A DNA stretch of 64,000 bases from contig CAIIXF020000012.1 of NCBI GenBank assembly GCA_903813345.2, forward strand, positions 7,339,615 through 7,403,614, in the 5' to 3' direction. This DNA comes from Owenia fusiformis (taxonomy: Eukaryota; Annelida; Polychaeta; Sabellida; Oweniidae). A program made the position numbers and the translations under genes. Positions 11,757-63,545 of this stretch are shown piece by piece (within the stretch, counting starts at the first letter, position 1; each line of letters begins with the position of its first letter). The notes beneath the pieces are model-generated. The model was given only the letters and a program-made list of their open reading frames with translations, was not told where the DNA came from and ran no database searches.

Positions 11757-11933
11757 CTGTTGGGCTATTTATATCTTTAATTTTGGTCCCATCTGCGTAC
11801 ACTGAATACCCAGTCACTATAGCACCATTTGAGAACCCCTTGGCATTGATAGTAATGGGTAGCCATGTGACTAGAAGTGTTCCCTCCTGGGGCCCAGGTT
11901 CAACTTGTACATCTAGGGGTGGGTCTGGTATAC
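11757..11933 (-). CDS. RIMBP: RIMBP exon 15: first half of FN3-III
   Basis: Phase 1 to phase 1, donor ACAG|GTAAGT. Contains [20 protein letters not shown] followed by VTWLP and [10 protein letters not shown], the A-C strands of the third fibronectin-III domain and highly typical of RIM-BPs. The second half of the domain (the VTVRT-type strand) is not found downstream, so the next intron is long or leaves the window. Confidence 0.93.
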
Positions 11934-14900
11934 CTTCAAGTAAACAGTAGCTATTATATAGAGAATCCAATACTGAAGAAGGGGTGGGGGGGGGCTGATA
12001 AATATCATTGGGGTTTCTCAAGCAAGGATGATTGACATCTCCCTGACCAGGTTTGTGGTTGTTATATTATCTGATAATAGAGAGGTTAAGCTATATATGC
12101 AGCTAAAATGTATCCTTGTTAAATAATTTTCACTTACTTCCTGGCTCTGTTCTGAACTCTATAGTTGAAGATAACTGTTCACTTCGTTTTCTATCTTTTC
12201 CTTCATCATATGTGGCTTTGGCATTCTTAGCTTGGACCTTAACTTTATGAGCAGTGTCTGGTGTTAAACCTGGAACATCAATAGTGAAGTGTTAAACATT
12301 AATAGTTATTAGTTTAACATCAATGGTTAGGAGTTAGACGTTAATAGTTGAACATCAATAGTGAAGTGTTAAACATTAATAGTTATTAGTTTAACATCAA
12401 TAGTTACAACTTAAACATTAATAGTTATTAGTTTAACATCAATAGTTAGGAGTTAAACATTAATAGTTATTAGCTTAACATCAATAGTTAGGAGTTAAAC
12501 ATTAATTAGTTTAACATCAATAGTTAGGAGTTAAACATTAATAGTAACTAGTTTAACATCAAGGATTAGGAGTTAAACATTAATAGTTTATAGTTGAACA
12601 TCAATAGTTATTAGTTTAACATCAATAGTTCAGAATTAACATTAATAGTTAGGAGCTAAACATTAATAGTTATTAGTTTAACATAAATAGTTAGGAGTCA
12701 AACATTAATAGTCATTAGTTGAACATCAATAGTTCACAATTAACATTACATGTAATTGTATTCATATATTCATACATACATATTTTCAAATAAAACAGAA
12801 ACGGAAATCTGAATTTATTTTTCTATCTTATTCTGGATTAAAGCCTGGCCAAATTTTCAACTTCCTTAATTTGTCTCAGCGATTATTCAATCCCTAATGA
12901 CCCTTATTAGTAAATACCTGATAAAGAATGCTTGTAGATTCCAGGCTTGCATATTCTAGTTTCAGCATTGTTCACATAGATGGTGTGTACGTAGTTACTG
13001 TTGCCAGGCAACCAGGAAAGTAAGGCAGAGGTTGCGGTGACATTACGAACTCTTAGATTTGACGGTGCGAGAGAAGATTCTGAAAATTAAATGCAAAATA
13101 GAATTAAGAAAAATAGATGGTAGCACTTTACAAAATAAATTCCTTTATGGAAAATCTTTAACTTTTGGCAACTTATGGTAGTGGATACCTTTTACCAATG
13201 CTCAGGCATGGAAACTCAATACTAAAATGCATGGAATATAATACCCCTTTAACTGTTTTAAAATGAATTCACTAAATTGTTTTTTCTATTTGAAAAGAAA
13301 ATATTGTATATAATTTTGCTTTACAATAAAAACTTTATTCTCTATTTGACATCGGTGATTTTGGCCTAAAACGCAATTTTTTGAGTTTTAGATCTTACCT
13401 TTACCGATGTTAATAGTGCATTCTGGATCTTTGCTTTGCCCTCTATTGGTAACACTCCTAACACATATTTTATGTGGCTGAAACAAAATCATTTTCTCAT
13501 TCGTAATCTAGATGCAAAGTTTGAATGTTTTGTGGTTTGGCAAACAAATGTGTGGTCTCTTGTATTTTTATACAAAACTAATTAATCTGAAATATACAAA
13601 AGTGTATCTAAAACATTAATGTGGTCATTTGATTACTCAGAAAGTAAATCTGACTGTACATGATGGATCATTTTTGTTATCTTATAATGCAGATAAAGAC
13701 CTAAAAATCCCATACAATATTCAGAAATATTGCTGAGGTCAACATTCAAAATTGTTTACCTTTGTGGATGTAACACCTTCAACAAGGGCTTTTGTACGTT
13801 CTGAACTTTTCACGGAAGTTTTAAAAGTGTCATCTACATAGACGTGGTAAGCAGTAATTACATGTGGACTGGTCTCGGGATGAGTCCAGGATATGACAAT
13901 GCTGTTGTTCAACTGACGTTCTAGTTTCAGGTTACGTGGATATGGAACACCTAAAAATAAAAATACATTGGTTAGTAGACATGATATTGTTCTTAATTTT
14001 GCAACTTTTCTCTAGTCAACTTAAGTTTTTAGTGAATACTATATACCAAAAGTGTATTGAGATGAATACCTATGTATCATTGACAAGTGACCAGGCCCGT
14101 AGCCAGGGGGGCTTATAGTATTCACATACCGAATATGAACAAAATCGCTCCACTACTTTTTGAATTACAGCAAAAATCGTAAAATAACGAGTAAAGGCCA
14201 CCATTTTTCAAGATGGCTGCCATGTGCTTCTTTAATATCTACATTTCTTCTTAATTTTTTTACATTTATTATTGCTATTACAATTTTACATATTGCACCT
14301 AAATTACTATAAAATCGTCACTAAAATGGCCGCCATTTTCAAATAAGCGGCCATTTTGAAAATTGGAACTTCTACCTCCATAGGGTATATGTGTACAAAA
14401 TATGAACAAAATCGGGCAAACGGTATTTGAATTATTGCCTGGACATACGTACGGACGAATGGATGGACAGAAGGATGGACGTACGAACATACGTACGTAC
14501 GGATGGACGGACGGATGGACGGACGGAGGTGTTCCCTTTATCCCTCCAAATGTTGTTCCATGGGATAATAATCATAGTGTTACCTTGATGTTCTCACGCT
14601 CACAATTCATAAGTTCATTTATTAACAATTTCACACAGAGTAGTAAATTTTGCCAGGTTCCATCCTTATTCCCACAAAGCTAATATGACTTGATCAATGG
14701 GCTTAAAATAGGTTTTGTTCTTAAACAATACTAATCAGACACATCAATTGGTTTATAAGTTACGTAAAGAGCCTCTCTTTCATATCATTAAGTGATTAAA
14801 ATCTCATAACTTTGTGTGACATAAAAGTTTAATAATACCTCGGTAAGAAATACATATTGCAAGTTTGAAAGTTCAATTACGAGAATCATAATGATTTGCA

Positions 14901-26900: not shown

Positions 26901-29900
26901 TTTGCCTTCTGTATTTAAATTCAACATAAATATTTTTCACTACAATGTACTGAACTTTGTATGGATATGAAGATATGATGAATTTATGATTTTTACTGCA
27001 TTATCTCAAAATAGTTGATGCCCAATTATAATAGACGGAGTTTTATTCATCTAATATCCTAAATGACTTCTGTTCATCGTGGAGACATGTAATAGTTATA
27101 TTGTATCATTCATCCTGTAATATGATGTGCTCTGAGTAAATTCATCCTTATATTAAGTACATTTTAACTGTCTTCCATACATGTACAGCTTTTTACATTC
27201 ATTGTTCCGCTTGAATGATCCATATATGGTATTGAATGTACCTCATCATATATTTATATTAACTCATAACTTAATACGACGAGAAACTATGCAGATATAT
27301 GAGGAAATGTGCCAAAATGGTTGTTTTTTTTAAATATCAGTTATATCTACATGTACTGTACTGTGTATGAACACGTATGAAAGCTTACAATATGCATGTA
27401 CATTTACATGAAAAGCTTCTTTACAACTTTAAACCATAAAAGAAACTATTCAAAAATTTACTATTCCTTTATTCAGATGTTTACATTTGTACTGTATTAA
27501 TCAAACTTTAAATGGGGTCAATATAAATGCAGTTTTTCAAAAAATATTTTACATTTATTCATTTGATAGTCTTTTTCTGTAGTTGGTATGTTCATTTGCA
27601 TTCTATTTGTTTGTTTGTTATTTGGTACATTTGTTTGTTTGTGTGTTTGTATGTTTGTTTGTCTTTCATTTGTTTGTTTGTTGGCAAGTTTATTAACATG
27701 ATTGGCTATGAAGTGATACAAATGGCATCAACCTTATTTGCATCATTTTAAAGTTTGTTATAATTCAAGTCGGTCACTTGTCCTTTTTTGACTTTTTCAC
27801 CCCTTTGTGATTTATTAACTGTTTGATACACAGTTTTTATTCTGTAGACCCCTGCTTTAAATTCCTTGAATTCCATGCTCATTTCCTTTGATTTCTCTCT
27901 AAAATTTGAAAGAACTGCCTGATTTTCTTGCATTTCTATACAATTTAGAGTGTTGACTACATGCCTGTTTACCCTTTTCCTTGCTAATTCCACTCTTTTC
28001 CACTCTATTTTCTATTCTAAAACATGACCACAATCACATTTTTCTCATTGAAGTTAATCCAGCTACGGATTAGCAGATTATCCCAGGGATAAGGAGGTAT
28101 CAAATGGGATTATTAAAAACACATCCCTCATCATATAATCCTTTGCGGAATATATCAATATAGAAATATGGCACAAGGTTATATTCAACTAATTCACTCT
28201 GTGAAGTCCAGTTTTTTGTACTGATAAAGAATATACCAATTTTCAGCCAAAATCATTGAAATATTTTTGAATTAGAATAAAAATTTCAAGACTTATGGGA
28301 CAACCCTCGTATATAGCAAATGTAACCACCTGTCATTTGTTGCAGATGCTGTACACTGACAACTGAATGCCAAACACCATCCACAAAAAAGTTGGAGATT
28401 ATAACAAGAAGTGGTGCCTAAAGAAAAGGCCAAAAACTAAGAAACACTTAAACTAGACTGCACAACAAGTGCTGCCGCAAACAAATAAGTGCAGGAAGAA
28501 CAATACAACAAGAACAAGGCGTCATAAAAACCCGAATAAGTAGAACAGATTTAGTATCACATGTATCGTGTTGATCAGATTAGACAAGTTTTACTGTATT
28601 ATTATCAGAAGAAGCTACAGGGTGACAGCTACATAATGCCTTGGTCACATTTGCTCTGATTTTCACGACCGCGCCCGGGTAATTGAGTATTTTGTTCAAA
28701 ATTGAATACAATAGTGAGCAAAACACTGAATCTGCCTGGCGCTGGCCGATAGATCGGAGAAAATGTGACCCAGTCATAACTGTTTCATAATTTGACCTAG
28801 TTTTCATTGTTGATTTACTTGAGGTCAAAGAAGTCTATTTTTATCTTCTCATTTTCTCATCCAAATAGCATACTTGTAATATCAATACCCAACTTTATAA
28901 TAAAATCAACTAACATTCAAAAATGCTAGTGGTTGAGATCAATAAAACAATAATAATTTTAGCTGAAGGTAATTACGAAGTATTATATCCGAAATTAACT
29001 TGCTTTATAACACAATAAAATCAAAATAAAATCACAAAAGGAATTGTTCCATAAAATTAGATCCATTCAGATAAGAAACAATATTTTCTCAATTGATATT
29101 TCATAAAAAATTATATCTTCAGATCAATATGTTTCATAAAAGACAAAATAAATGTCACCCATTCTATTTCTCTCCTTCCTCACTTATTCCACATTATTTC
29201 TCTTAAAATTCAAACAAAATGACAGATTTGCTTGCATTTCCATACATTTTAGAGTGTTCCCTACATGTCTGTTTACTTTATTCCTTGCTGATTTCACTCT
29301 ATTTCTCTCTATTCTCAATTTTAAAACACGACCAGTCTTTTTTTCTGACACGTGATCCAGTGATATTCAGATCAATGGCACACTATCAGGTACTATATAC
29401 TAATTGATTTATCTACAATTACGCCAAAAATATCGCATTTTTTAATCAAGATGCAGAATAATAGAATAACAAATAATCAAACTCATTGAGCACAATAATA
29501 TTCAACAAAAATCTGATATACTAGAATACCAGATATCTTTTACCATTTCATACAGATTTTATAGATAGCCAGTAGAGAGATATCTACATGTTCAAAATAT
29601 ATTTCTAAGGGACACCAGAAAATCAGTAAGAGCACTAAGTTCCTTTGGATTGGATCAATACAGGACTGCTACTGAACTGGCATGAACAAAACCAATAGAA
29701 TGGCAATAGAAGAAAAATGGCATTATTGGTCTTTCAAAATATCTAGCACATAACAGCTATAGTCCAGTCTGAGCTACAGGCTAAAAAATTAAGACTCAGT
29801 TTGTATGTTCAATATAAGGAAAATGGTATTTTGTGGTCTTCCGAATATCTTGCACATTGTTATAGTCTTGCTTGTCCAGTCTTAAATACTTCAGGCTTAA

Positions 29901-32900
29901 CTTAAGTCCTTAAGTACAGTCTTAGCTAGTCCAGCCTTAATTGGTCCAGTCTTAACTAGTTCAGTCTTAACGTGAATCCTTGAGTGCAGTCTTAGCTAGT
30001 CCAGCCTTAATTGGTCCAGTCTTAGCTGGTCCAGTCTTAACTAGTTCACTCTTAACTTAAGTCCTTAAGTACAGTTTTAGCTAGTCCAGCCTTAATTGGT
30101 CCAGTCTTAGCTGGTCCAGTCTTAACTAGTTCAGCCTTAACTTAAGTCCTTAAGTCCAGTCTTAGCTAGTCCAATCTTAACTGGTCCAGTCTCATCTCGT
30201 CCAGTCTTAAGTAGTTCAGCCTTAACTTAAATCCTTAAGTCCAGTCTTAGCTAGTTCAATTTTAACTGGTCCAGTCTTAGCTGGTTCAGTCTTAACTACT
30301 CAGTAGTTCAGCCTTAACTTAAGTCCTTAAGTCCATTCTTAGCTAGTCCAATCTTAACTAGTTCAGCCTTAACTTAAATCCTTAAGTCCAGTCTTAGCTA
30401 GTTCAATTTTAACTGGTCCAGTCTTAGCTGGTTCAGACTTAACTACTCAGTAGTTCAGCCTTAACTTAAGTCCTTAAGTCCATTCTTAGCTAGTCCAATC
30501 TTAACTAGTTCAGCCTTAACTGAAATCCTTAAGTCCAGTATTAGCTAATCCAGTCTAAACTGCTCAGTCTTAGCTAGTTCAGTCTATGGCACAGCCCAAA
30601 ATATGCCTTAGAGATTGAAATTCATTCATAATACTACATATTTTGTACTATGACTTTGAAGTAAATTATATACATGTATGTATAATCATATCATTAGTAA
30701 TACATGGCATTAACATGCAAAATGTAACCACCTGCCATTTGTTACAGAAGCCAATCGCCAAAGACTGTTCACAAAAAAGTGACATAAAAAATTGACTCAT
30801 GCAAATTAAGGCACAAATTGGCACAGATGAACAACGATATGCCCTTTATTGATAAAGTGGTTTTATATCTGAAATGAACATGTAATATGAAATAGAAATA
30901 TCTGAGATGTTCTTGTTCTTGGTGATGTACAAAGAATAGCTGAGTTAATGCATTTGCTATGTATCATTTATAATCCTCTCTCTCCAGGGATAATCTCATA
31001 TCTATGTTTAGATGAAAAAGCTACTACAGGGGGATTATAACAGGAAAAACTGGAAAGAGCATTCAAACAAAAGGTCACTGTGGTCATGATTTTAAAACGA
31101 AAAATATTGAATAAAAGAGTGGAATCGGCAAGGAATAAAGTATACAGACATGTAGTTGACACTCTAAATTGTATAGAAATGCAAGAAAATCAGGCAATTC
31201 TTTCAAATTTTAGAGAGAAATCTAGTGAAAAAGCATGATAATGGAGAAATGGCAATTGCAGAAGGATTACAAGAATGGTGAATAATCAATCCCTTTGTTC
31301 TGTAGGGTGCACAAATATGATTAAGAATAATGTGTCTATAGATATACTATCAATCAAGCAAGAACTGTAATATTATCTTTGTTCAAATCTTTGAAAAAAA
31401 ATCAAGTGAAAAACCATGACAAGAGAGAAAATGGCAAACTCTAGCAGACGGCAATAAAGTATAGATATACTATCAATCAAACGAGGAACTGTAATATTAT
31501 ATCATATACAGACACTCAGAACAAAGTACCTATTTTCTCTACTAATGCTCTCCATCAAAGACATTCCATTACTCGGAAAAACAGCCATTTATCAGATGTA
31601 ATGATGGCCCTTATAACACAACATGGGAGTCAGTGTTGGTTTTAAGCATTAGTTGGTAAAATATGGAAATTGGGTGACTAAAATGAAATTACAAATGATG
31701 GGTATGGAATATTCACTGTAATGAGAAAATTCCGTAGTGCGAATTATAATTATTTCTTAGCTTTAATAATTAGAGGGCAAAATGTCATATCAAATTGCAA
31801 TTACAATATGAAGCCATTTGTTACAGAACACTATATGTCTTTTTTTGCCAGTTACAAAAAAGGTGTTTGCAATAATATATCACCAGTTTTTGGGGTGATT
31901 CAAAAATTCAAGTATATAAGCATGTTTGTGGTGTTTTAGTTAAGCAACAATCTGAATAATATAGGTAAATGGCATATTTCAGAATGACCATTCCTTCTTG
32001 CCCATTTTTGGCACTTCTTTACAACTTAAAGTATAATCTGCATGCCTATTTGCTTTATTTTGTCCTCATTCTTTTCTTTTCCGCTTAATTTTGCATTTCA
32101 AAACATAACCACCATTATTTTTTCATTCCAATACATCAAGAAACAAAAGAACATATACTGTAAGTTGCTTTAATTTGACAGCCGTTTTAATTTTGCAGAT
32201 TTGGCGGATTGATGACACCCGCCAAATTAGGTCTCCCCCAGATCCACTATTGGTACAGACAAAAAATTCTGATATCAAGAGAGATAGAATAGCACTTTCG
32301 GTGTTGAGGATGACTTAAAGTACAGTTAGTCCTCCAATGTTCGCATTTTCCATATGGGTAAATCCACCAAAGTAAATAGTAGCTAAAATTTCTAAATTTG
32401 CCCAATCTGGCCCAATCTGCCAAATTAAATAGCGCCAATTTAAAGCAACTTACAGAATGACCTCATATAGGAAATCTCAACTATTGAAACAAAGCCACAT
32501 CAATCATGCCATATAAGGACAATTCATATATATGACCTAATACAGGAAATCTCAAATTGAAACAAAGCCACATCAATCATGCCATATAAGGGCCATTAAG
32601 TGGTTCTGTTTGCCAATCCATCCATTTTCAACATGGCTGCAATATCACAAATCAAACCATCAAGCAATGATCTAAAGCTTGCAATCCCATTTGAGGCTCT
32701 CTTTATTAACTTATATGAAACTGGCTTTTGTTGGCTGGCTAATGTTTACAAGGCTGTCCTTGAATTATTTCTATTCAATTTTCTATAAGTTACAAAATTT
32801 CAAATTTATATACGGTATATAAATTTATATTTATATAGCACATTGACATGATTAAACAAGGCATTAACATTCAAAATGTCACCACCTGCCATTCAATACA

Positions 32901-38900: not shown

Positions 38901-41900
38901 ATTCCCTGCAAACATATAGGAGTATTGGATAACACTTGGGGTCAGGCTTACATAAATATTGATCACTTTGGGCATTATAGATATAATGCACTATACAGTG
39001 TACTTCTTATGAACAAAGGGCACTTAAGATTGACCAGAAATGTGAGAAAGATTTAGATCAATATGAGAAAATGGATGATTCACAAAATAAAACAGTAATA
39101 TTCCAAAAATTGAAGAAATAGGGTGTTGTGCCCTGTATAGATTGTATACCCCTGTATAGATAGTACAGCTCTGTATATGCCACACTACTGAAAATCTGTA
39201 TTTAACACTGCCAAAGGGTTTCATAAAAATGAGCTAAAAATTTGCCAAATATCCCAGATGCGAGTAGAAATGATCTTGATTTACGTCAAACTGATGTCAT
39301 ATTTTGAATCTTCATGTAAAATTACATTTAGAAATGTGGTTTTGAAAAGAGTTTATCAACTTTGAAAATTTAATTTTCTTTGAAAGTGTGACTTCTAGGT
39401 CGGGGAGATTCCCCATAGACCCCATGTTGTAAAACCACAAAAAGTGAAATATCTTTTCTTGTGTTGGGCAAATAATGTTTTCTTTTACTGGACATATTTT
39501 AATTGGTATAACTATCATAACTATACATAATGGTAATATGAAAAGTGAACCATTAAAACTGATGCATATTCAAGTTTAAGGGGATTTTGTAATACCCTGC
39601 CATGTTAATTCCCCTGAATCAGCCACCTGGTGGCGAAAAAATTAGACCAGTTAGGCAAGGGTTTCATAAAAATGAGCTAAAAATTTGCCAAATTGGGGAA
39701 AATGAGACCAGTTGGGTAAGGATTAAATGCCTTATTCCAAGAGAATAAATCAAGCTCTCTCTCTCAGATATCTATTCCACTTTATTTCACAATTCAAAAT
39801 GCGACCCATGACATTTCTCATCTGCGCTGAATTAACTAGCTATCAATTGGATTTTTCCTGTGTGTCTCACTGCATTTTTTCTTAATTAGTATCAAAGGGC
39901 TCACAGAGTCTATTGATTTTCCCAGTTTTCCTTGTGTTTTATGGGATATAACATGGGTCAGTAAACAGGCTTATGTTTGTTAAGGTTACATGTGTGCAAA
40001 TAATAAATATATACTTAATATCATTTTTCAATTATGGTCCCATCACAAGCCCTTAAGTGACCCCCTCCTGTATACCTCAATAAAGAGGTGAAGTAGAACC
40101 ATATACCTCAATAAGGAGGTGAAGTAAAACCAGATATAATCCTTCAATTATTTCTATGAAATAACATGAAATGGCAAGAATTTAGAATACCACAACAAGG
40201 TATTTTTTCCTCACAATACTTCAAAGATATTGAAAAATCCAAATCTTCAATATTTCAGAAATCATCATCTCTACATTTTTGATTCCTCTCACAGCCGAAC
40301 TGTCTATTGATCTACTCATGCAGTATATCTAAATTAAATTATGATAAAATTGAGGCCCTCCAATATCTCCATAATATTAGACACCTACTTTTCACCATTT
40401 AATGCTTTATCTTCAACATGTGTTTTGATATGCCTTCTTTACACACTTTTCTTGCTAAAATGTGACTGAACTACGTAATTTCCCGTCATTTCTATTTTTG
40501 CATGGAAATTACACGCCTATGTATTTCTTACTTGCTGATTCCACTCTTTTCAACATTATTTACGATTTCATAATATGACCACTCACGATGATATTTCAGT
40601 ATCCAATATAATACTTATTTGACAATATGAGTACCATATCCAGAGTTTTCCTCTGAGTCAAAGGTCTTGTTATCCACAGTGTTTAGGGTCCTATAAATCA
40701 GTAATCAAAGTCACACCTGACGTAACATCGCAATCAATTTGATGTACTTTTGTCACATACGAGGACAGGCTGTGACATTTTTCTGAGGTCCCTTGTGATC
40801 GTAACTGCTTCATTTATAGAACACAGAGCCAATATGCTCCAGTAAGAATCTAATATTCCTCTTTGCACTTACAAGATTCCATGACGATCATGTTTTATTT
40901 TTGATGTTACTATGGCAACTGAAGGAAAAAACGAGAAATTGTTGATACAATCACGAAGAACAGACTCTAAATTATGTAGAAATGCAAAAACACGAAACAC
41001 TTCTTCCAATTTTTTTCGAGAAAATTGACAAAATCTAGTGATCAGGAAGTATCGTCTGCAAGGTTGAATACCCTCAGCTCTCACTCTACAGTTCTACAAC
41101 ATCAATACCAGAAGAAACAATATCCCTTCAGTCGTGTTTTGAAATAAAATACAGTAAAAATAGAAAGATTGAAGTGAAATGAAGAATATAGATCTTTAGT
41201 CTTTACTTCAAGCTGTATAGTAATAACGAAAAGTTTGACGTTTCATAAAAAATTCAGGGAGAACGTCTGGGATTAAATACGACCAGAGAGATATTTTAAG
41301 CCTGAGTAGAGGTCAATTTTGCAATATGACGAACACACTACAAGCTTATTACGATAACTTTCTCTTTTTGTATTGGATTCCTATTCCTAGCGTGGATTAT
41401 ACACTTCCCCCTGCAGTGTGCATTTTAATTGCCTGCTTTTGTTGAGAAAATTGATGACATTTACCCAATACTTTAAAATACAAAAGTTACAAAATTCCCT
41501 TAGGAAAAAAGTTTAGGGCATTACCCCTGGTTTACCCGAATGTAGCATTAACTTACCTTAATGTCGACCTTAATTCAAAATTACCCTCAATATTTGGGAA
41601 ATTAACCTAACTTTACTCATAACTAGATGTTGGGGAATTATAAGGGTCAGTTAAGGGCTAAATATGTGTGATCTTAATATACCTAAATAAACCCCAATTG
41701 ACCTTATTTTACCTTAATTAACCTCAGTTACCCTATTTTCTAGGTTACTTTATGCTATCTGTTTTTTTGTCTATAAATATCATTAATCTTAAAGAACTAT
41801 AGTCTACCAGTCAAATAATAAGTATCTATTGTATAAGATGACCTGTTAACTAACAAAACAGACACGTGGCCCCAAAAAAGCTCCTACAATGGCCACAACA

Positions 41901-44900
41901 ATATGTTAGCAATACATATGCCAAGATTGAAAATTTTAAAGATCTTACATGTAGAACCTAATTGTCATTGCAATTCCTTATTCAGTTTCCTGTTATCCTG
42001 GTTCTTGATAGCTACTACCTGTAATATAAGGCCATTGGCTTAACTGATAGAAGAGACATGTGAACCTAAAAATATCTGAAGGCCACCAAATCATTGATAT
42101 GTTATTGATAATGCCATGTTGAAATCTATTTACCCAACTATTGAAGTAGTGAACTATCCTTGTTCCATACCTGTCACCTAAAAATATTTAAAACATTTTA
42201 TTTTAAAATCTGGATAAATCAGGATATTTTGAAGATAAATCTGGATTTTTTCTAAAAAGTTGTGATATTATAAAGGAAATAGGGAAGAAAAGCAGGGTTA
42301 CAAATACTAGATCAGCAATTCTAAAAAGCCTGGAAAATCGTGATAACTATGAATAATTCAGGGTAACTAAAAATAAATTGGGATCAAATTTGGATATCAT
42401 GAAATAATTCGGGAGGAAATCAGAGTCAGAAATACTATAAATCAATAAACCTAAAATAATTTGGGATAAAAATCAGGATTGATTAGAATGATGAAGAGAA
42501 TATCAGAGGAAGAAATAGGGGTTTACAAAACAAAGTCAGGATGGTGAAGAAGAATCAGAAGAAATTCCTGGTATACAATAAATATTTGGGAGAAAATCTT
42601 GATGTGCAGAGTCTAGTTAAACTACACTCTGCCTAGTAGAGACCATATTACAGTTTAGTAGCTCCGCCCCCACGGCGGGTACCGGTGACAGTTTGTGTCA
42701 TAAATCACTTCTGATCTACGCGCTGACCTTTCTTCCACCAGTCAGCGAGATTGAAGAAACATGCCAAATGCATTCTAATTAAATATGCGCATGTCATTGG
42801 TCAATTCCGGGCTCAACGATGACATCAGAAGGAATGACCATATATAGAACGTCGGTCAAATTTGGCCGACAACCACTGATTGGCGCGGTGAGTTCACAGG
42901 TTTATTTTAGTTTGAAAGAGTGAAGACGAAGCTCGCTTTTAAGAATTGAAGTCAAACGAATGCAAAGGGTAGATGGCTTAGCATAAATCTGAAGGAAATA
43001 AACAATAATTTAGTAAGTATTAATTGGAACAAGGCTCATGCTTCCTTGTGATTTTGGTTAATGGGTCTTTAGTGTAAATTGATGGAATCATTAGGATGAA
43101 ATGTGTATCTTACAGGTACATCAATCTCTATTTATAATTCTAGATGAGAGTCCATGTTTTATTCTAAAAATTGTAGTAAGGTTGTCTCGGAAGAATCATA
43201 TAAAAATATAATGGAAATACTAGGGACAATTCATGTAGACTCAATGGTAAATTGAGGGAAAATTTTGATTAACTATAGGTCCCATATAAGGGAAATCCAA
43301 GAGACAATTCAGGTCGACTCAATGGGAAATTAAGGGAACATTGAAATAAACTAAGGTCCATGTCAAGGATAGATAAAAAGTAATTGATGTCATTAATCGA
43401 GATGTGTTTGATGAAGTTATGTACACATACTTTATATTTTAGACATCTTGCTCATAACAAATACCTGTAATATCAAAATAATAAATAGTCTATTATTATT
43501 TGAAATTTTGGTAGTATATTAGTAATTACTAGTACTTGTATTTTATTTCATTGTAAATTATGTATTTTGTTAATTTTGAGCCTGATGACTTACTCTTAAA
43601 TATGTATTCAATATATGGCTGAAATCAATGTGACCCTCATTTCTGATAATAATTTATCATGATCTACCCTTGACATGAACCTCGGTAAACATTAATTGAA
43701 CCTTAATTGTCCCTTAAGTCCACCTTAATTTGCCCTTAAGTGCACCTTAATTATCCCTTGAGTGCATGTATAATTTCCCTAAGTTTCCCTAATATTCCCA
43801 TTGATTCACACCAGCCAACCATAACTTCCCCTATCATTTGATATTACTTATAGAAAATGGGATTCACTGACTGCTTAGGTAATTTAATGTTTTCTACTTG
43901 AACCCCTTGTTAGGAATCCCTAATACCATCACACTAGATTTGTACTCCCTTGTCTGTTTTGAGGAACCTGTATTTCTTCCAATATATGTGCTAGGGGTCT
44001 AATATTTAAAGTAGTTAAAATTTGACTAGTTGGCACAATGTAAAAGAAAGCAGAAATTACAATTATTTGAAAATAATGAATTGCTTGACCTCTAAACATT
44101 CCCAATTTAAGCCCCTTGATAACTCTGGAGCCATTTCCAGAGTCGGGAATCTTTTTTCTTATTAAAGCTAGATCTCTAATATAACAAGTGAATTTTATTT
44201 GGCTTTTACCCTATCGAGAAATTAAAATATAATGACAATAAAATGATAGTTCTGTTTTTTAAGACATTTAAATATGGCCAATCTAGCAATTCACATTGAC
44301 AAGATAGTGTGATTCTCACTGGAGCTGTTTTAAGGGCCATGAATCTCTTCTGTTATTTAACCTAGATATCTAATATTACAAGTGAATTATATTTGGCTTT
44401 ATGGCTGGCAAGAAATAATCAGAGAAATGACGACTTCCTGATAGTTCTGTTTAATGAGAGGCCTTAACATGGCCAATCTATAGCCATTTGCTTTGAAAAC
44501 ATATTATAATGTGAATCTCTCAGGAGCTGTTTTGAAGGCAGTGTATCTCTTTTGTTATATAAGCTACATGTCTTACATTACAATTGAATTATATTTGGGT
44601 TTAGGGCTAGCAAGAATTGAAAATAAAAATGACAATGTCCCAAAAGTTCTGTTTTGAAAGACTTCTTAACATGGCCAATCAAGCCATTTACCTTGATATT
44701 ATAATGTCAATGTCTCAGGATCTGTTTTTAGGGCAGTTAAGCTAGATGTCTCGTATTATAACTGAATTATATTTGGCTTTCTTGGGAGAAAGAAATGAAA
44801 AAAGGACAACTACCCAATAGGTATGATTTGGTGAATCTCTAAGCATGGCTTTTTCGGTCATTTCCTCAATAAAATAATCATACTTATCTCATGGTAAATT

Positions 44901-47900
44901 ATGTATTTTGTTTATTTTAGCTAATTATTCTTAAATTTACTTCAGTCAACCATGATTTCACTTTTTTGAAACTGAATTCTGAAATTCCATCAGACTTAGG
45001 CCCCTATAGATAAAGTTTGATCTATTGTAAAAGGTAAATGATTTACCCTGAATTTACCCTCAAATTACCCTAAACTTTGAAGACCCCTTGTACCAAACTC
45101 ATAATTTAGCTATTGATTTTTCAGTAAATAATTCTAAAAATGATGGTTGTATTTTACATTTCATATTATTTATATAATAGAATTCACTGAATGCTTCATT
45201 TGCCTCAAGCAATTTAATGTTTTCTACTTGAACCGCTTTGGGGGAGTCACTGAAGTACCATTACACTAGATTTGTACTCCCTTGTGCTGATTTGAGGGAC
45301 CTATTTCTCATTCCATATATGCGGTGGGGGTTTCATATTTAAGGTTGTTAATATTCGACTAGTAGGCACAATGAAAATGAAAACATAAATTACAACTTTT
45401 TGAAAATTATGCATTGTTCGACCTCTAAACATTGCCAATCTAAGCCCCTTGATAACATACCTTGATTCTCTAAGCATGTCTTTTTGAGTCATTTTCCTTA
45501 AAAAAAGTAATTACTAGTACTTGTATTTTATTTCATTGGAAATTATGTATTTTGTTAATTTTAAGCCTGATGACTTACTCTTAGATATGTATTCAATATA
45601 TGGCTCAAATAAATGTGACCCTCATTTCTGATAATAATTTATCATGATCTACCCTTGACATGAACCTCGGTAAACATTAATTGAACCTTAATTGTCCCTT
45701 AAGTCCACCTTAATTTGCCCTTAAGTGCACCTTAATTATCCCTTGAGTGCATGTATAATTTCCCTAAGTTTCCCTAATATTCCCATTGATTCACACCAGC
45801 CAACCATAACTTCCCCTATCATTTGATATTACTTATAGAAAATGGGATTCACTGACTGCTTAGGTAATTTAATGTTTTCTACTTGAACCCCTTGTTAGGA
45901 ATCCCCAGAGGCGTAGCTAGCCCATTTTGCGAGTGTACGCCCGTATGATTTCCCGGTTTTATCAAAATTAACAAAACGATGGTTCCATAAAATAGGAAGA
46001 TCCCGGGTGTTCAGAAGATAGGGGACACACTAGTCAAACACTCTTAATTCAATGAAGGAAATATGTATTGTTTGATCATTTTGACATAGCTTTTTAAAGG
46101 GATTGAATTAACTGTATTACAGATAATATTCGGGAAACAAAATAGACAAATTCTATATAATCATGCCATCGGCGATCGAAGCCGTCTATCAAGGCGATTT
46201 TATTTTTTAGGCTACCTAAAACTGTATGTATGAGGCTCATTGTTTTAAGCTTTTGTGGTCATTCTCCATGAAATATTATTATTTTTTCTGTGTTTGTTTT
46301 TATCTAGCTCATAAGATGATTAACAATCTATAGAATAAATTCTATCTTTCTGTTTTTTGCATTTGCAAACATGTCAATAACAGTATCAATGTTTATATCC
46401 TGTTCCCTATGGATATGTATCATGGCCAAGGAAGAAGGTCTTGTCTCGTTCATTGTGGAACGCAAGTATGACTTAATGCGTTTCAAACTGCTAAAGCTTC
46501 GTTCAGCCACGCAAGTGGATACTGGCAATGTTAGCAGCTGGACCAAACACGTGTAGACATTGGGGTAAAGAGGCTGGGGGGTCTGTTGAATAGTCTCCTA
46601 TCGATTTCTATCTCTTGGTAAAATATTTATTTTTCATCACAATTAATCAGGTAAATTTTATTTTTCCTTAAAATTTGAGAGTACGCCTGGGCGTACTTGG
46701 CGTACACGTAGCTACGCCACTGATCCCTAATACCATCACACTAGATTTGTACTCCCTTGTACTGTTTTGAGGAACCTGTATTTCTTCCAATATTTGTGCT
46801 AGGGGTCTAATATTTAAAGTAGTTAAAATTTGACTAGTTGGCACAATGGAAATGAAAGCAGAAATTACAATTATTTGAAAATAATGAATTGCTTGACATC
46901 TAAACATTTCCAATTTAAGCCCCTTGATAACTCTGGAGCCATTTCCAGAGTCGGGAATCTTTTTTCTTATTAAAGCTAGATCTCTAATATAACAAGTGAA
47001 TTTTATTTGGCTTTTAGCCTATCGAGAAATTAAAATATAATGACAATAAAACGATAGTTCTGTTTTTAAGACATTTAAATATGGCCAATCTAGCAATTCA
47101 CATTGACAAGATAGTGTGATTCTCACTGGAGCTGTTCTCTTCTGTTATTTAACCTAGATATCTAATATTACAAGTGAATTATATTTGGCTTTATGGCTGG
47201 CAAGAAATAATCAGAGAAATGATAGTTCTGATAGTTCTGTTTTATGAGAGGCCTTAACATGGCCAATCTATAGCCATTTGCTTTGAAAACATATTATAAT
47301 GTGAATCTCTCAGGAGCTGTTTTGAAGGCAGTGTATCTCTTTTGTTATAAAAGCTACATATCTTATATAACAATTGAATTATATTTGGCTTTAGGGCTAG
47401 CAAGAATTGAAAATTAAAATGACAATGTCCCAAAAGTTCTGTTTTGAAAGACTTCTTAACATGGCCAATCAAGCCATTTACCTTGATATTATAATGTCAA
47501 TGTCTCAGGATCTGTTTTTAGGGCAGTTAAGCTAGATGTCTCGTATTATAAGCTACATGTCTTATATTACAATTGAATTATATTTGGCTTTAGGGCTAGC
47601 AAGAATTGAAAATAAAAATGACAATGTCCCAAAAGTTCTGTTTTGAAAGACTTCTTAACATGGCCAATCAAGCCATTTACCTTGATATTATAATGTCAAT
47701 GTCTCAGGATCTGTTTTTAGGGCAGTTAAGCTAGATGTCTCGTATTATAACTGAATTATATTTGGCTTTCTTGGGAGAAAGAAATGAAAAAAGGACAACT
47801 ACCCAATAGGTATGATTTGGTGAATCTCTAAGCATGGCTTTTTCGGTCATTTCCTTAATAAAATAATCATACTTATCTCATGGTAAATTATGTATTTTGT

Positions 47901-50900
47901 TTATTTTAGCTAATTATTCTTAAATTTACTTCAGTCAACCATGATTTCACCTTTTTGAAACTGAATTCTGAAATTCCATCAGACTTAGGCCCCTATAGAT
48001 AAAGTTTGATCTATGTAAAAGGTAAATGATTTACCCTGAATTTACCCTCAAATTACCCTAAACTTTGAAGACCCCTTGTACCAAACTCATAATGTAGCTA
48101 TTGATTTTTCAGTAAATAATTCTAAAAATGATGGTTGTATTTTACATTTCATATTATTTATATAATAGAATTCACTGAATGCTTCATTTGCCTCAAGCAA
48201 TTTAATGTTTTCTACTTGAACCGCTTTGGGGGAGTCACTGAAGTACCATTACACTAGATTTGTACTCCCTTGTGCTGATTTGAGGGACCTATTTCTCATT
48301 CCATATATGCGGTGGGGGTTTCATATTTAAGGTTGTTAATATTTGACTAGTAGGCACAATGCAAATGAAAACATAAATTACTACTTTTTGAAAATTATGC
48401 ATTTTTGACCTCTAAACATTGCTAATCTAAGCCCCTTGATAACATACCTTGATTCTCTCTGGAGCTATTTTGAGAGCCAGGAATCTATTTTTTATTAAAG
48501 CTAGATCTCTGCTATAACAAGTGAATTATATTTGGCTTTTAGGCTATAGAGAAATGAGAATAAATATGACAATTACCCGATAGTTCTGTTTTTTAAGACA
48601 TACTAATATGGCCAATCTAGGCATTGACATAGTCAAAATTGTTTGATTCTCTCTGGAGCTGTTTTGAGAGCCATGCATTTCTTCTGTTATTTAACCTAGA
48701 TATCTAATATTACAAGTGAATAATATTTGGCTTCATGGCTGGCAAGAAATAATCAGGGAAATTATGACTATGTGATAGTTCTGTTTTATAAGAGGCCTTA
48801 AAATTGCCAATCTAGCCATTTGGTTTTAAAACATAGTGTGATTCTCTCTGGGGCAATTTTGAAGCCCAGGTATCTCCTTTGTCTTTTAAGCTAGATGCCT
48901 AATATCACAGGTGAATAATATTTAGCTATAAGGTTAGCAAAAATTGAAAATAGAAATGACAACTACCTAATAGTTCTGCTTTATAAGACATCTTAACATG
49001 GCCAGTCTAGCCACTTACATTGAAATCATAATGTGAATCTCTCTTGAAGATACTATGATTCTATCTGGGGCTGTTTTGAGGGTCACATGTCTCTTATATT
49101 AGTTGAGCTGGATGTCTAATATAACAAGTGAATAATATTTGGCTTTTAGACTAACATGAAATGAAAATAAAAGTGACAACTACGTTATACTTATGATATG
49201 TAAGATGTATCAACATGGCCAATCTAGCCTTTTACATTATATAACATGCTGTAATCCTCCCTGGAGCTGTTTTGGAAGGCATATGTATAGTTTATTAGTG
49301 AAACTAGAGGTTTATTATTACAGCTCAGTTACATATGACTAGAAAACACATTGTCAACTACTAATAGGTATGATTTAGTGGACTCTAAGCATGTCTTTTT
49401 GAGTCATTTTCCTTAAAAAAGTAATTACTAGTACTTGTATTTTATTTCATTGGAAATTATGTATTTTGTTAATTTTAAGCCTGATGACTTACTCTTAAAT
49501 ATGTATTCAATATATGGCTCAAATCAATGTGACCCTCATTTCTGATAATAATTTATCATGATCTACCCTTGACATGAACCTCGGTAAACATTAATTGAAC
49601 CTTAATTGTCCCTTAAGTTCACCTTAATTTGCCCTTAAGTGCACCTTAATTATCCCTTGAGTGCATGTATAATTTCCCTAAGTTTCCCTAATATTCACAT
49701 TGATTCACACCAGGCAACCATAACTTCCCCTATCATTTAATATTACTTACAGGAAATGGGATTCACTGACTGCTTAGGTAATTTAATGTTTTCTACTTGA
49801 ACCCCTTGTTAGGAATCCCTAATACCATCACACTAGATTTGTACTCCCTTGTACTGTTTTGAGGGACCTGTATTTTGTTCAATATATGTGTAAGGGGTCT
49901 AATATTTAAGGTTGTTAATATTTGACTAGTAGGCACAATGGAAATGAAAACATAAATTACAACTTTTTGAAAATTGTGAATTGTTTGACCTCCAAACATT
50001 GCCAATCTAAGCCCCTTGATAACATACTCTGATTCTCTCTGGAGCTATTTCGAGAGCCAGTAATCTCTTTTTTTATTAAAGCTAGATCTCCAATATAACA
50101 AGTGAATTATATTTGCCTTTTAGGCTATAGAGAAATGAGAATACATATGACAATTACCCGATAGTTCTGTTTTTAAGACATTTTAATATGGCCAATCTAG
50201 ACATTGACATTGTCAAAATAGTTTGATTCTCTCTGGAGCTGTTTTGAGAGCCATGTATCTCTTCTGTTATTTAACCTAGCTATCTAATATTACAAGCGAA
50301 TTATATTTGGCTTCATGGCTGGCAAGAAAATAATCAGAAAAATTTGCCTATGTGATAGTTCTGTTTTATAAGAGGCCTTAAAATGGCCAATCTAGCCATT
50401 TTGTTTAAAAACATAGTAAGATTCTCTCTGGGGCAGTTTTGAAGCCCATGTATCTTTTAAGCTAGATGCCTAATATCACTGGTGAAATAGATTTTGCTTT
50501 AAGGTTAGCAAAATTGAAAATAGAATTGACAACTACCTAATAGTTCTGCTTTGTAAGACATCTTAACATGGCCAATCTAGCCACTTACATTGAAATCATA
50601 ATTTGAATCTCTCATGAGCGCTCCACTTTCATGAACATACTAATATTCTATCTGGATATTAGGTGAGATGGATGTCTAATATAACAAGTGAATAATATTT
50701 GGCTTTTAGACTAACATGAAATGAAAATAAAAGTGACAACTACCTGATACTTATGATATGTAAGATGTATCAACATGGCCAATCTAGCCTTTTACATTAT
50801 ATAACATGCTGTAATCCTCCCTGAAGTTGTTTTGGAAGGCATGTGTATGGTTTATTAGTGAGACTAGAGGTCTTTTATTACAGCTCAATAATATTTGACT

Positions 50901-53900
50901 AGAAGACACATTGTCAACTACTAATAGGAATGATTTGGTGGACTCTAAGCATGGCCTTTTGAGCCATTTTCATTAAAAAAGTAATTACTAGTATTTTATT
51001 TCATTGGAAATAATGTATTTTGTGAATTTTAAGCTGGATGACTTCATCTTAAATATGTATTCAAATCAGTAGCCTCCATATATCTTAAGTGTACATTCTA
51101 GAAATTAAGGGTAAACTAAGCCTGAACTAAACCTAGATACTAAACCCAAACTTGACCTAAATATTCCCCAAAATCAACATCATGGGTTATTCATGGTTTT
51201 AATTTTAAAATTTAAGGGGAAGATAAGGTAAAAAATGGGTTAAGGTTAACATTCACCTTAATGTTAAGGTTTGTGGACAAATTAATCTTAAAATAACCCC
51301 AAACTTTCCTTAACTCAAGGGAAGTGCCCTAAACTTTTTTCCTAAGGGTTGAGTAGAAACTGAAGGAAGTTGAAGTCACAGCCGGGCATCAACATGCAAA
51401 ATGTCACAGCCTGCCATTTCTTACAGTAACCAAACACCAACCACTGAAAACCAAGTGCCGAACACCGGCCAAAAAAATTGGAGACTAACATCATGTCACA
51501 ACTTCAACAAGAGTATGTCCATATTATTTCGATTTGCAAGTAAAGATATACAAATCTTAAATTGACCAGAGTTAAACATGCTTTGGCTCAACTTGTTCAA
51601 TTAAATGTATACCAAATGAAAGCTGTATACCAACGTAAATCCCATCGAAAGAGAGTGTTAATATGTGGGACGTGCAAAAGAGCAGTGTGCATCTTAGTTC
51701 CAATATATCGATTTACGATTGATAAAAACGTAAGTAATTACGTAAGAGAATATGTTCTATATATTGATACCTTTACTCATCAATATGAAGAATTAGAGAA
51801 AATAGAAGATGAAAAAGTTGAAAGTTGTTATTTTAAGCCAAAGTGTAGGTTAGCTCGACCTTCTTCAACCTCCTTTAATAAGTTATATTGATCTGATATT
51901 TTATGGACAATACAAGGCAGGATTTTTCTTTACAACAGATTTAATTAATAACCTAACAACCTACTCAATCAATAAGGATTATGCTGCTTGTCTTTATGTT
52001 TCTTGTCATTATATTGTTTGTCATTATGTTTCTTGTCATGAAACATAAAAACGATGCAGAAATGTTCAATTGTTTCTTTTTTTATTATGTCATTTGGAAT
52101 TGGTTATTTTTCTTTGAAGTTCATTATCTATAATTCTTAACAGTGGCATACACAATTGTGAATTTTGAATATCTGTACACATACGGGGTGTTCCAAAAGT
52201 AACAGGGTACAAAAATACAAGTACACCCAAAATAATTTAACAAGGGTCCTGATTGTTGCATATTTTTACCGAATGTACACAATGTTACAATGATATATGC
52301 AATGTATAATATATACTCTGCATTAGGACCTTTGCCCAGTAGTTTTAGGGAGATAGTGGTAAGATATATCCTGTATCCAGAACCTCCAAAACTCACGCTA
52401 TATCTCCCGCTTGTGGGCATATCTTCCCACTACTTCCGGTAATTGAATAATAATTTGACAAAAAATTTAGAAAAAAATTAATACATACTCTGCATTATAT
52501 AGATTTTCTTCTAATCTGAACATCTCTTAATATGTTGAATACTCTTCACTTCTATTCCATTTTTTTAATCTGCCATTGACATATGAACTCCTACCAGGAG
52601 AACACTTTTGGCCGATCCCAATGGTGTTTGGTATGACAGTTTTTAATGTACTGGGCAATGTAACAAATTATTGCATTGCCCAGTACATTGCCCAAACATG
52701 ATCACATATACATGTATAGTAAACCTATATATACAGTATAGAACATTTTTTGCTGAAAAAAAATGTTCAGCGTTGGTAGGTGTTCACTGCAGAAAGGGTA
52801 ACTTATAGTCAGAAGACAGTAGAGTATGTTTGGAGGTAGGGTGTCTACTAGAGACGGGTGTTCACTAGAGAGAGGCGTTCACTAAAACAGGTTTTACTGT
52901 AGTGTCAATGGAGACCATTTTCAAAAATACTAAATGTAACCTATTTATACTTATCATGAATCAAATTGCCATGGAAACTATATATTCAAGATATTACTTC
53001 AGATTTATCAAAATGGCCGAATAGAAGATCAAAGAGGGGCATACAAGTGTAAAATTGCTAGAGTTCTGCTGAATATTGGAATTTCTCAACAACTGAATAC
53101 TTAGTCCTCAAATAAAATTTACCATCATGGTTGGTTCATTTTACCCGATCCCAAAATATATGTAAAATAAAATAAGGATGAAAATTTGTGTATTTTGGAA
53201 TAATAATACATCAGTTATTTAACTGTATTAAACACGTCAGTTCGTTTTTGTTTTGTTGTTCTGTTAGATTTAAATACGAGTAGGTGGTATTTTATTTAAG
53301 GGGTTTGCACAGTTTGTACAATTAATTATAGAAAAGCACGATCTAATTGCACACAAATTAATGAAATGATAATTGGAAAATCAATATGAATTAGATTACA
53401 TCACTGACCAAGGGATATAGGAATATAATATGCATTATTAATTATCTGAGCTATCTGAGAAATAAATCACCAAATTAATCACCAAATCTCCAAACTAATC
53501 AACAAATCTCCAAACTAATCAACAAATCTCCAGGTATTTATTTCTCTTTAAATCACAGTTGATTGCAGTGTGGCTAAGGGGCCCAAATTAGACTCTAATT
53601 ATTATTAGAAACAAGAAAAATAAAATCTAATTGATATTTAATACTATGTACACGTACATTAACTAATTGAATTATAGAGCTTAATCAAATTAATAAATGT
53701 TTAAATACAATTAATTCTAATCATAGGTAAATGTATATAATGCATATTGATTTGGATGTACCATTAGATTCCTTCAGAAACCAAGGTAAGCCTCTTACCA
53801 GAGAGATAGGGGTTGTTCAAGTGTTATTTTGGACTTTCTTGAGAAAACTTATCTTTTCTAAAAATATGCCATAAAATAAAATGTATATAATACTGATAAG

Positions 53901-61630: not shown

Positions 61631-62036
61631 ATGCGATGAATTTACATGAAATTTACAGATGCCGTATGTGAACAATCCCAGTAATCATTGTAACTGATTT
61701 CATTGGAAATGCCTCTTATTAGCGTATCTAACGCAGCTAGCCTGGCGCATTACAGTACATAGTACAAGTGTCATTTCTGGCGAGAGGTCTCGGTCGAGGG
61801 GTCTTGGAGACAAGGTCTAGTAGCTAAGCTTCCCCCAAACCACCGTCAGTACTTATGTGACAGGTAGAGTATATTTGGTTGATCCTAGGGTTATGGCATT
61901 GATGTGTCATTGCCTATAATCATCGAGTTATTCGATGATTACTAACTTATATTTCTTCATCAGCAGCCGAAAGAATGCTGTTTGGGTTTTAGTTCTATCA
62001 TTCAGTTGTGCTAGAGATAACTTTTGGTTAAGATGA

Positions 62037-63545
62037 CGTTGTGGTTTGGTTCTGTGTTTAAGTTTCATATATAGTGGTGTATGTTTTATGTTCATGGTAT
62101 GTAAATTGGAAGAGTTGTAAATTCGTTGTCTTTAGTAGCGTTTCTGCTTTATCGGAGTTTGCGGTATTTTCGTTTATAAAAATGGTAATTGGTTTGGATG
62201 TGTGTAGTGTGAGTTTGTGGTGGGTTCCCTGTTTGTCAAAGGTTTGGGTGTTTAGTCTTGTGTTTGAGCTTAGTGTTGATTTGTGTGACAGTGTGTAGTG
62301 GTGGTAGTATATATTATTGTTAATATGTTTACTTGACAGGGGATATGTTTTCCCGTGTCGGGTTGCAGTATTTTGGTTTGTAAATTTCGTGTATGTTTGG
62401 CGGCGTTTGTGGTATGTATGTGGTAGAAAAGTTGTTTTTCCATGAATTGGGTGTATAGTGTCATGTCTGAGGTTTATTTTGGTGTGTGTGTTATGGTAGT
62501 AGCATCTCTTGTTGTTGAGATATTAACTTGATTTTGGAGGCTGTCTTCCCGTGATTTCATTATGTTTTGATTATCCCGTGTTTGTGTTTTGTCGGGATCG
62601 TGTATGCAACTATGCGTATTGATTAATTGCATCAAGTTATGGTCAGTTTGTTTGTTTGAATTTGTTTTGTTTGTTTGGTTTGTTTTTTACCCTTTATGGT
62701 TAGGTGTTTTTTATGTCAGTAGTGTGTGCGTTGGGGGAGTTGTTAGCTTGTTCGCGATTGTTTGTATTTTGGTTTTATCGGAGTTTTGTAGTGTTTTGGT
62801 TTGTAAATTTCTTGTTTTATTTGTTTTGTGTGGCGTTTTTATATAGTGGTAGATAAGTTGTTTTGCAACAGTTTGGGTGTGTAGTGTCATGTCTGAGGTT
62901 CATTTTGGTGTGTGTGTTATGGTAGTAGCATCTCTTGTTGTTGAGATATTAACTTGATTTTGGAGGCTGTCTTCCCGTGATTTCATTATGTTTTGATTAT
63001 CCCGTGTTTGTGTTTTGTCGGGATTGTGTATGCGTATTGATTAATTGCATCAAGTTGTTGTCAATTTGTTTGCTTGAATTTGTTTTGTTTGTTTGGTTTG
63101 TTGTTTACCCTTATGGTGAGGTGTTTTTTATTTTGATAGTGTGTGCGTTGGGGAAGTTGTTAGCTCGTTCGCGATTGGTTACGGTATTTTGGTTTTATCG
63201 GAGTTTTGTGGTATTTTGGTTTGTAAATTTTGTGTTTGTTTGTGGCTTTTTTTGGTATGTAAGTGGTAGGTAAGTTGTTTTTCAACGGTTTGGGTGTGTA
63301 GTGTCATGTCTAAGCTTTATTTCGATGTATATGTTGTGGTCGTAGCATCTCTTGTTATTGAGGTATTAACTTGTTTCTGGGGGCTGTCTTACCGTGTTTT
63401 CAATTTGTTGATTGTCCCGTGTTTGTGTTTTGTCGGGATGGTGTATGCGTTTTGGTGAATTGTAGATCACGATTTTGTCGGTTTGTTTGTTAAAATTTGT
63501 TTCGTTTGTTTTGTTTGTTGATATGAGTTTTATATGATGTTTCTA
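62037..63545. repeat. ~420-bp tandem repeat with strong G+T strand skew
   Basis: Clear copies start near 62453, 62877 and 63294 (each with 'gtgtagtgtcatgtctgagg', 'tagcatctcttgttgttgag' and 'cccgtgtttgtgttttgtcg'), and a diverged copy fills 62037-62452. The plus strand is dominated by T and G with little A or C throughout, which is not explained by a simple microsatellite. No ORF is conserved across copies. Confidence 0.88.

Follow-up and report, generated by a model that had tools for sequence, protein, structure and literature searches.

A non-autonomous transposon family of Owenia fusiformis carrying a two-spacer higher-order tandem array

Introduction

Animal TRC elements have been described with ends that start with CCC and with 2-bp target duplications (PMC1636069). 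SmTRC1 of this group also has an internal tandem-repeat region and truncated copies, and its 2-bp duplications were found for 7 of 14 copies by means of empty paralogous sites (PMC1636069). Repeated subterminal motifs are a feature of plant CACTA transposons, and Jozin, a CACTA-like element of Chenopodium, combines subterminal repeats with an internal satellite array (PMC8978399). Tetris of Drosophila virilis is non-coding, has a variable number of ~220-bp tandem repeats and is described with no autonomous copy found (PMC4079207). In Galileo, another Drosophila element, internal repeats carry extra transposase-binding sites (PMC3688188, PMC4079207). Satellite-like repeats are also known in the non-autonomous miDNA4 MITE of Xenopus tropicalis (PMC9659126) and in oyster Helentrons (PMC7492417). 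The element reported here, from the annelid Owenia fusiformis, resembles each of these systems in the respects just listed, the likeness to Galileo being that its internal spacers share the subterminal motif of its ends.

Results

The window, a stretch of 64,000 nucleotides of contig CAIIXF020000012.1 (positions 7,339,615 to 7,403,614), contains at 41497-51348 a complete copy of a non-autonomous cut-and-paste transposon of this 498-Mb genome. All features given below are on the plus strand unless marked as minus. The copy is bounded by 24-bp terminal inverted repeats (TIRs) that match each other perfectly, the left one at 41497-41520, starting with CCCTTAGG, and the right one at 51325-51348 (minus), both flanked by TT. 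Perfect inverted repeats of at least 20 bp are not rare in the window, where 15 pairs were counted, so that the perfect TIR match by itself is little proof; the proof lies in the paired copies across the genome. A genome search with both ~300-bp ends found them as matched pairs at seven loci. These seven complete copies, 4.5-15.4 kb in size and dispersed over six large contigs, have constant TIRs, and the interiors at the six other loci are similar to that of the window copy. The 23-bp end, with up to three mismatches, occurs at 19 genomic sites (13 in the seven copies, 3 in fragments and 3 elsewhere), compared with 1 for a control pattern.

The left end module, LE (363 bp, 41497-41859), is 92-96% identical to the LE of five other complete copies, and the sixth copy, C3, retains 233 bp of it at 98% identity. 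The right end module, RE (284 bp, 51065-51348), is 96-99% identical to the RE of all six other copies, that of C3 being split by an insertion. Past the 24 bp, LE and RE show weak similarity to each other (z 2.3 and 3.2). Both modules contain subterminal CCTTAA/TTACCC motifs, at a density of 28.7 per kb on the left and 26.9 per kb on the right versus 1.33 per kb in the remaining window. The motif was picked post hoc, from inspection of the ends and spacer A; its count on either side was matched in 0 of 500 shuffles. The preliminary description had reported the exact 24-bp inverted ends and the CCTTAA-rich subterminal zones, and both are borne out, as is its view that the element has no transposase. 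Only one stop-to-stop frame of at least 110 aa lies inside the window copy (46668-47018), and it has no Pfam match above cut-off. No transposase was found in a Pfam scan of seven stop-to-stop frames inside the copies (at least 100 aa in six copies and at least 110 aa in the window copy, plus the hAT remnant described below). The long frame of copy C12b belongs to a LINE reverse transcriptase (PF00078).

An exact 2-bp target duplication is present at six of the seven copies, compared with 5 of 42 swapped pairs, and a 3-bp duplication at none of the seven. The exception is C3, whose flanks are TG/TT without a perfect duplication. The ends start with CCC. Together with the 2-bp duplications and the motif-rich subterminal regions, this would agree with the animal CACTA (TRC) type, and these three features are the basis of the assignment. 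The same transposon could instead have been moved by a transposase of a different superfamily with 2-bp duplications, such as ISL2EU, and we consider this fairly unlikely. In its favor, the end-like sites have no Transposase_21 match close by, and the genome search for transposases covered Transposase_21 only. However, CCC ends with 2-bp duplications are the reported features of animal TRC elements (PMC1636069), and the genome contains 14 Transposase_21 matches, whose open frames reach 608 aa.

A transposase partner having the ends of the element was not found in this search; among 85 end-like sites, the smallest distance to a Transposase_21 match is 124.6 kb. These sites were obtained with a looser end pattern (15 sites for the control pattern), and many of them belong to a separate family with ends CCCTTAGGAAAAATGTTATGGG, paired mostly ~0.46 or 1.0 kb apart; one such pair, L071, was examined in full and has no duplication. 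The single end at C2:6192998 was rejected as an autonomous relative, being followed soon by a common short repeat (2941 first-look candidates), with no right end within the 10 kb examined. C349 was likewise rejected, as it carries RE and ~0.75 kb of the usual interior.

The interior of the transposon is a higher-order repeat, in which two related spacers, A and B, are each followed by six ~195-bp monomer types to give a dimer of ~3.1 kb. The spacer-monomer modules noted in the preliminary description resolve in the window copy into three A spacers, two B spacers and 24 forward monomers. Spacer A copy 1 (43521-43925), with CCTTAA every 11 bp, is followed by a run of five monomers (43944-44865), spacer B copy 1 (44883-45260), with TTACCC every 11 bp, and a lone monomer of position B1 (45276-45449). 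Spacer A copy 2 (45506-45905) is broken by a nested non-autonomous hAT fragment of 817 bp (45906-46722, minus), which has a 5-bp duplication, ATCCC, and a hAT dimerization-domain remnant (PF05699, E 3.1e-10). The array continues with a six-monomer run, A1-A6 (46751-47855), spacer B copy 2 (47872-48248), the run B1-B6 (48264-49414), spacer A copy 3 (49420-49824), a further run A1-A6 (49843-50973) and the beginning of another spacer that is cut off at RE (50974-51064). These monomers are head to tail. The window copy also has two degenerate inverted monomers at its left end (41800-41884 and 41918-42076, minus; E 1.1e-9 and 5.4e-11), the first spanning the LE boundary, and five other copies keep a short weak remnant in LE; foldback elements of the Tetris/Galileo type would have long inverted arms built from the repeats. 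Rfam and tRNA searches gave no match in the window.

Between LE and the first spacer, the window copy has a block particular to it (41860-43520), at the position of which four of the six other copies carry two forward monomers. A genome-wide search with 41860-42600 returned no whole match elsewhere, only partial matches of 64-80%. The GC-rich patch in this block (42604-42971), earlier taken as promoter-like, is not part of the system. It is an independent, MITE-like dispersed repeat, nested here, that is bounded by TACCC...GGGTA, shows 9-bp duplications at its other loci and has a high copy number (1636 first-look candidates, 40 scored), which rules it out as a promoter of the element.

Spacers A and B are mutually homologous (z 14.2); A is present in all seven complete copies and B in six. 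Local alignments of A or B to LE or RE are weak (z at most 4.6), and the spacers were therefore rejected as true copies of the ends, with which they share motifs only; the motif count of spacer B is modest, being reached in 14 of 500 shuffles. Corresponding monomers, Ai versus Bi, are 80-92% identical, and different types 53-77%. In the window copy, C8, C6 and C3, same-position monomers are more alike than neighbors, a sign of in-register repetition that is weakest at A4-A6 (within-position means 79-84%). Monomers after a break of >700 bp within a copy were left out of this comparison, and position labels are shifted by one in runs missing a monomer. Copy C8 can be read as C6 plus one A-6-B-6 dimer and one nested insertion. 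The second dimer of C8 is 97.0 and 98.3% identical to the C6 dimer, versus 96.0 and 94.0% to the first dimer of C8. A fresh duplication inside C8 therefore does not account for the two-dimer form, and C6 could equally well have lost a dimer. The array-to-end junctions of the window copy are unlike those of the other copies, a difference that calls for either recombination or an older lineage.

Outside the transposon family and its fragments, monomers and A spacers turned up in just five short pieces, in searches whose counts are lower bounds. The seven copies hold at least 78 of 92 monomer matches (40 of 43 candidates scored), the rest being divided among C491 (10), a fragment (1) and short pieces (3), and at least 35 of 41 spacer-A matches. 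The array at C491:49000-55000 is without recognized ends and carries the same spacers and monomers, and so is probably a damaged copy of the transposon. Given this confinement, the array was probably bred within the transposon. The preliminary description had proposed a transposon that captured or bred a satellite; the transposon stands, and breeding is favored over capture. Its further suggestion, that the element may seed satellite arrays elsewhere, is unsupported, since mapping of monomers and A spacers over the genome, at lower-bound counts, gave no large free-standing array.

It is rather improbable that the transposon captured part of a higher-order satellite locus that already existed. 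The arrays of C6 and C8 begin at B5-B6-like monomers by LE and stop at A1-A2 by RE, as would a segment excised from a longer periodic array. However, a source array was not found in these searches, the monomer and A-spacer matches being concentrated in the seven copies, and the inverted monomer homology extends into LE, which argues that the element has long contained monomer sequence.

The empty sites give a direct view of the insertion. Copy C6 interrupts a LINE reading frame, which remains open when the flanks are joined. The joined flanks are identical at 400 of 400 bases to an unoccupied LINE at C9:7628507-7628906, indicating a precise and recent insertion, and 10 further genomic places match over the full 400 bases. 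For C3, three other loci match across the join, at 79-89% identity. Target duplications of fixed length and empty sites are both present, the latter at lower identity for C3. Chance inverted repeats around segmental duplications or ordinary satellite blocks, to which the frequent perfect inverted repeats of the window would lend some color, are refuted for practical purposes by the C6 empty site, together with the same borders at all seven loci across six large contigs, a 2-bp duplication at six of them and an empty site for each of two copies.

Discussion

With its fixed ends, 2-bp duplication, empty sites and non-coding interior holding a copy-dependent number of A-6-B-6 units, the element represents a family of non-autonomous DNA transposons of low copy number. 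It is likely cut in trans by a CACTA-type (TRC) transposase, and its array was likely bred inside, changes size in register and moves with the element. The ends and the subterminal CCTTAA/TTACCC sites would be recognized by a transposase encoded elsewhere. The array may have arisen through tandem duplication within the element, and its size would change by half or full ~3.1-kb dimers, whether inside one copy or between copies, through unequal exchange, gene conversion or gap repair, as the unit counts suggest. The array would then be carried along as the element moves. The occurrence of CCTTAA or TTACCC every 11 bp in the spacers, motifs common to the ends, leads us to a more speculative and on balance unlikely idea, that A and B are internal copies or mimics of a putative transposase-binding region, held in step by the six-monomer unit. 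Such a self-homogenizing site array could recruit or titrate transposase and compete with an autonomous partner.

The family provides a small natural series of a higher-order repeat within a sharply bordered unit, with one dimer, two dimers and partly decayed copies. The birth and homogenization of higher-order repeats, mostly studied in huge centromeric arrays, becomes readable here copy by copy. The system separates breeding in a transposon, which is likely, from seeding into large arrays, which was not seen, and it helps to show how mobile DNA can breed and spread satellite-like arrays.

The known systems differ from this family in several respects, as far as the accessible parts of their accounts go. 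The repeats of Tetris are in long inverted arms, its duplications are 8-10 bp and it also produced kb-size arrays (PMC4079207), whereas the window family has 2-bp duplications, a head-to-tail array with spacers, and no large free arrays in our searches. Jozin is a plant element with a transposase and an array near its 3' end that is called captured; the CACTA duplication is given there as 3-bp, and a spacer hierarchy is not mentioned in those parts (PMC8978399). Galileo belongs to the P superfamily and has long inverted ends, and its transposase binding was assayed (PMC3688188, PMC4079207); here the parallel is one of sequence motifs. The miDNA4 MITE (PMC9659126) and the Helentrons (PMC7492417) are of other superfamilies, and the parts available mention no spacer-monomer hierarchy. 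The end's first 13 bases were absent from the literature searched, a body without Repbase and most subscription papers. SmTRC1 differs in encoding a Transposase_21 protein and in its 54-bp end (PMC1636069), whereas the window element is non-coding with a 24-bp end, and its interior consists essentially of the two-spacer higher-order array. Tandem repeats inside transposons are already known; the two-spacer hierarchy appears to be new.

Complete copies and precise insertion

The element at 41497–51348 (W) and its relatives are shown to form a mobile unit with fixed ends, a 2-bp duplication and a non-coding array with a variable number of units. Its 24-bp terminal inverted repeats match exactly, as first described. 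Perfect inverted repeats of ≥20 bp number 15 in the window, so exact inverted ends alone are weak evidence, and the case is decided by the paired copies in the genome. The assembly comprises 498 Mb in 525 contigs, and the window occupies C12:7339615-7403614. The left 304 bp and right 289 bp gave 8 and 11 genome matches, respectively, and both ends pair at seven loci as complete copies: W (9852 bp) and six others named by contig, C8 (9713 bp), C6 (4891 bp), C2 (4490 bp), C12b (15393 bp), C11 (6947 bp) and C3 (7114 bp), where lengths count nested insertions, including one in C8 and those in C12b and C3. Incomplete loci comprise right ends on C349 and at C11:35.8 Mb (the latter in two pieces) and a partial left end at C2:6.19 Mb. 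C6 and C8 are 99.4% identical in the left end module (LE) and 99.3% in the right (RE).

The flanking 2 bp, left/right, are TT/TT, AA/AA, TC/TC, TA/TA, AA/AA and TA/TA, with TG/TT in C3. The duplication is found in 6 of 7 copies versus 5 of 42 pairings of flanks from different copies; the chance of at least six of seven matching at 2 bp is about 1e-6, and none of the seven matches at 3 bp. Empty sites were examined for C6 and C3. C6 lies in a LINE, and its joined flanks, minus one TC, restore one open frame of 133 residues. They are identical to the unoccupied C9:7628507-7628906 at 400 of 400 bases, and 10 further places match over the full 400 bases at 86–100% (rounded), with partial matches besides. 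For C3, three unoccupied loci match across the join at 79–89%. Insertion is therefore precise, and in C6 recent.

A higher-order repeat between the ends

In W, a monomer profile of 182 positions identifies 26 units, of which two are inverted. With A and B as spacers and m as a monomer, C6 reads LE-2m-A-6m-B-6m-A-2m-RE, and C8 has the same layout plus one extra A-6m-B-6m and one nested insertion. C3 reads A-6m-B-6m-A-6m-A-2m and W reads A-5m-B-1m-A-6m-B-6m-A-6m; C2, C12b and C11 are more broken. The preliminary description of spacers alternating with runs of ~190-bp monomers holds in W, with a unit spacing of ~195 bp, and the interior recurs between such ends elsewhere, A in all seven copies and B in six (absent from C11).

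In W, C8, C6 and C3, six monomer types are distinguished by position: monomers at the same position after A and after B are 80–92% identical, versus 53–77% between different types. Within-position identity is 79–99%, lowest at A4–A6, where numbering is shifted in runs with a lost monomer. The LE-adjoining pair in C6 and C8 resembles B5 and B6 (94–95%), and the A and B spacers are homologous (z 14.2). The C6 dimer (3106 bp) and the first C8 dimer (3079 bp) are 96.9% identical; the second C8 dimer is nearer the C6 dimer than the first C8 dimer. The array has true higher-order structure, each repeat comprising twelve monomers and two spacers, and its units would be gained and lost by in-register exchange.

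The GC-rich patch at 42604–42971, earlier taken as promoter-like, is instead a dispersed ~370-bp high-copy MITE-like repeat with TACCC...GGGTA ends and a TATA-like box. It is 94–96% identical at 39 other scored places (1636 first-look candidates), and four of five other loci inspected by eye show TACCC ends and 9-bp duplications. A hAT fragment at 45906–46722 has ATCCC on both flanks, and its empty site is seen in the window's two sister A spacers. The insertion in C8 is another transposon, with AGGCCTTATTCAC ends and a CTG duplication both read by eye; C12b contains a LINE (PF00078, E 3.5e-35). The seven long frames that the copies contain (≥100 aa; ≥110 aa in W) were searched against Pfam and none is a transposase, in agreement with the absence first reported for W.

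Relationships among copies

Both spacer trees place W, C8, C6 and C3 in one clade (100/99). The remaining copies form one supported group in the B tree, unsupported in the A tree, and many inner forks are open. Relative to C6 and C8, W is just 95.8% identical in LE, though 98.9% in RE and 97–99% in the first spacer. Its left block has degenerate inverted monomers spanning the LE boundary, and its right junction runs from spacer to RE, where other copies have a monomer or a longer RE side. W is thus the odd copy: either an older left side was retained or arrays were swapped between copies. In standard copies, such as C8 at element position 363, LE ends inside an inverted monomer at profile position ~38, matched weakly at 8.8 bits in both C6 and C8; the forward array starts beyond the boundary at profile position ~35, as though the boundary arose from a fold-back event.

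The array outside complete copies

A two-monomer query gave at least 92 matches (40 of 43 candidates scored). Of these, 78 fall in the seven copies and 10 in C491, an array of the same unit kinds with recognised ends absent. The rest are one in the C11:35.8-Mb fragment and three short pieces on the C3 contig. Spacer A gave at least 41 matches (33 of 33 candidates scored): 35 in the seven copies, three in C491, one in C349 and two short pieces on C4. With counts that are lower bounds, these queries reveal no large satellite array seeded elsewhere, contrary to an earlier suggestion. The short monomer pieces cluster at 0.87, 1.22 and 1.45 Mb on the C3 contig (the first two being loci L074 and L073), and the spacer A pieces at 28.10 and 28.24 Mb on C4. 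Two of the C3 pieces have ~990 bp in common at 96% identity and so are embedded in another repeat.

Other features of the window

Two similar frames at 3333–4241 and 8577–9242, each with a hydrophobic stretch followed by PPPTYDA-type repeats and with 42–43-bp tandem arrays nearby, are probably a duplicated gene. A RIMBP2-type exon lies at 11713–12063 (PF25523, E 1.3e-26) and would identify the window as animal DNA. At 29874–30585, AGTCCAGTCTTAACT-like units form a nested tandem array with higher periods of 55, 85 and 147 bp. Strong strand asymmetry marks 62001–63520 over a 417-bp tandem repeat (GC skew 0.54 and AT skew -0.48 in 62001–63000).

Comparison with known transposons

W and its relatives are a new transposon family, which we judge well worth a note, and not a new class of system. 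Internal satellite repeats in transposons are already described in the portions consulted of PMC1636069, PMC9659126, PMC8978399 and PMC4079207. An ordered two-spacer, six-monomer hierarchy inside a transposon was not seen in the literature searched, which was limited in coverage.

The subterminal end motif (CCTTAA/TTACCC) recurs in the spacers with an 11-bp rhythm, at element positions 2205, 2216, 2227, 2238 and 2249 in A and 3547, 3558 and 3569 in B. Its density per kb is 12.5 in A, 7.9 in B, 2.5 in monomers and 1.3 outside; with a motif picked after the ends and spacer A had been viewed, 1 of 500 shuffles reached the observed count in A and 14 of 500 in B. Galileo repeats carry extra transposase-binding sites (excerpts of PMC3688188 and PMC4079207). 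Taken together, the motifs and this precedent suggest that the array may be a bred set of putative transposase-binding sites.

A sister family of short elements has CCCTTAGGAAAAATGTTATGGG ends, most pairs lying ~0.46 or 1.0 kb apart (e.g. L071:1060-1523).

The partner was sought in the genome as Transposase_21, the CACTA/TRC transposase domain. It has 14 matches, nine with identical score and frame length; all are more than 124 kb away from any of the 85 end-like sites, which counts against CACTA/TRC. CCC ends, 2-bp duplications, subterminal motifs and the genomic Transposase_21 matches favour this assignment, from which we infer that a CACTA/TRC-type transposase acting in trans would mobilise the element. 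In the part of PMC1636069 consulted, SmTRC1 and the Tribolium and Aedes elements share CCC ends and 2-bp duplications with the W family.
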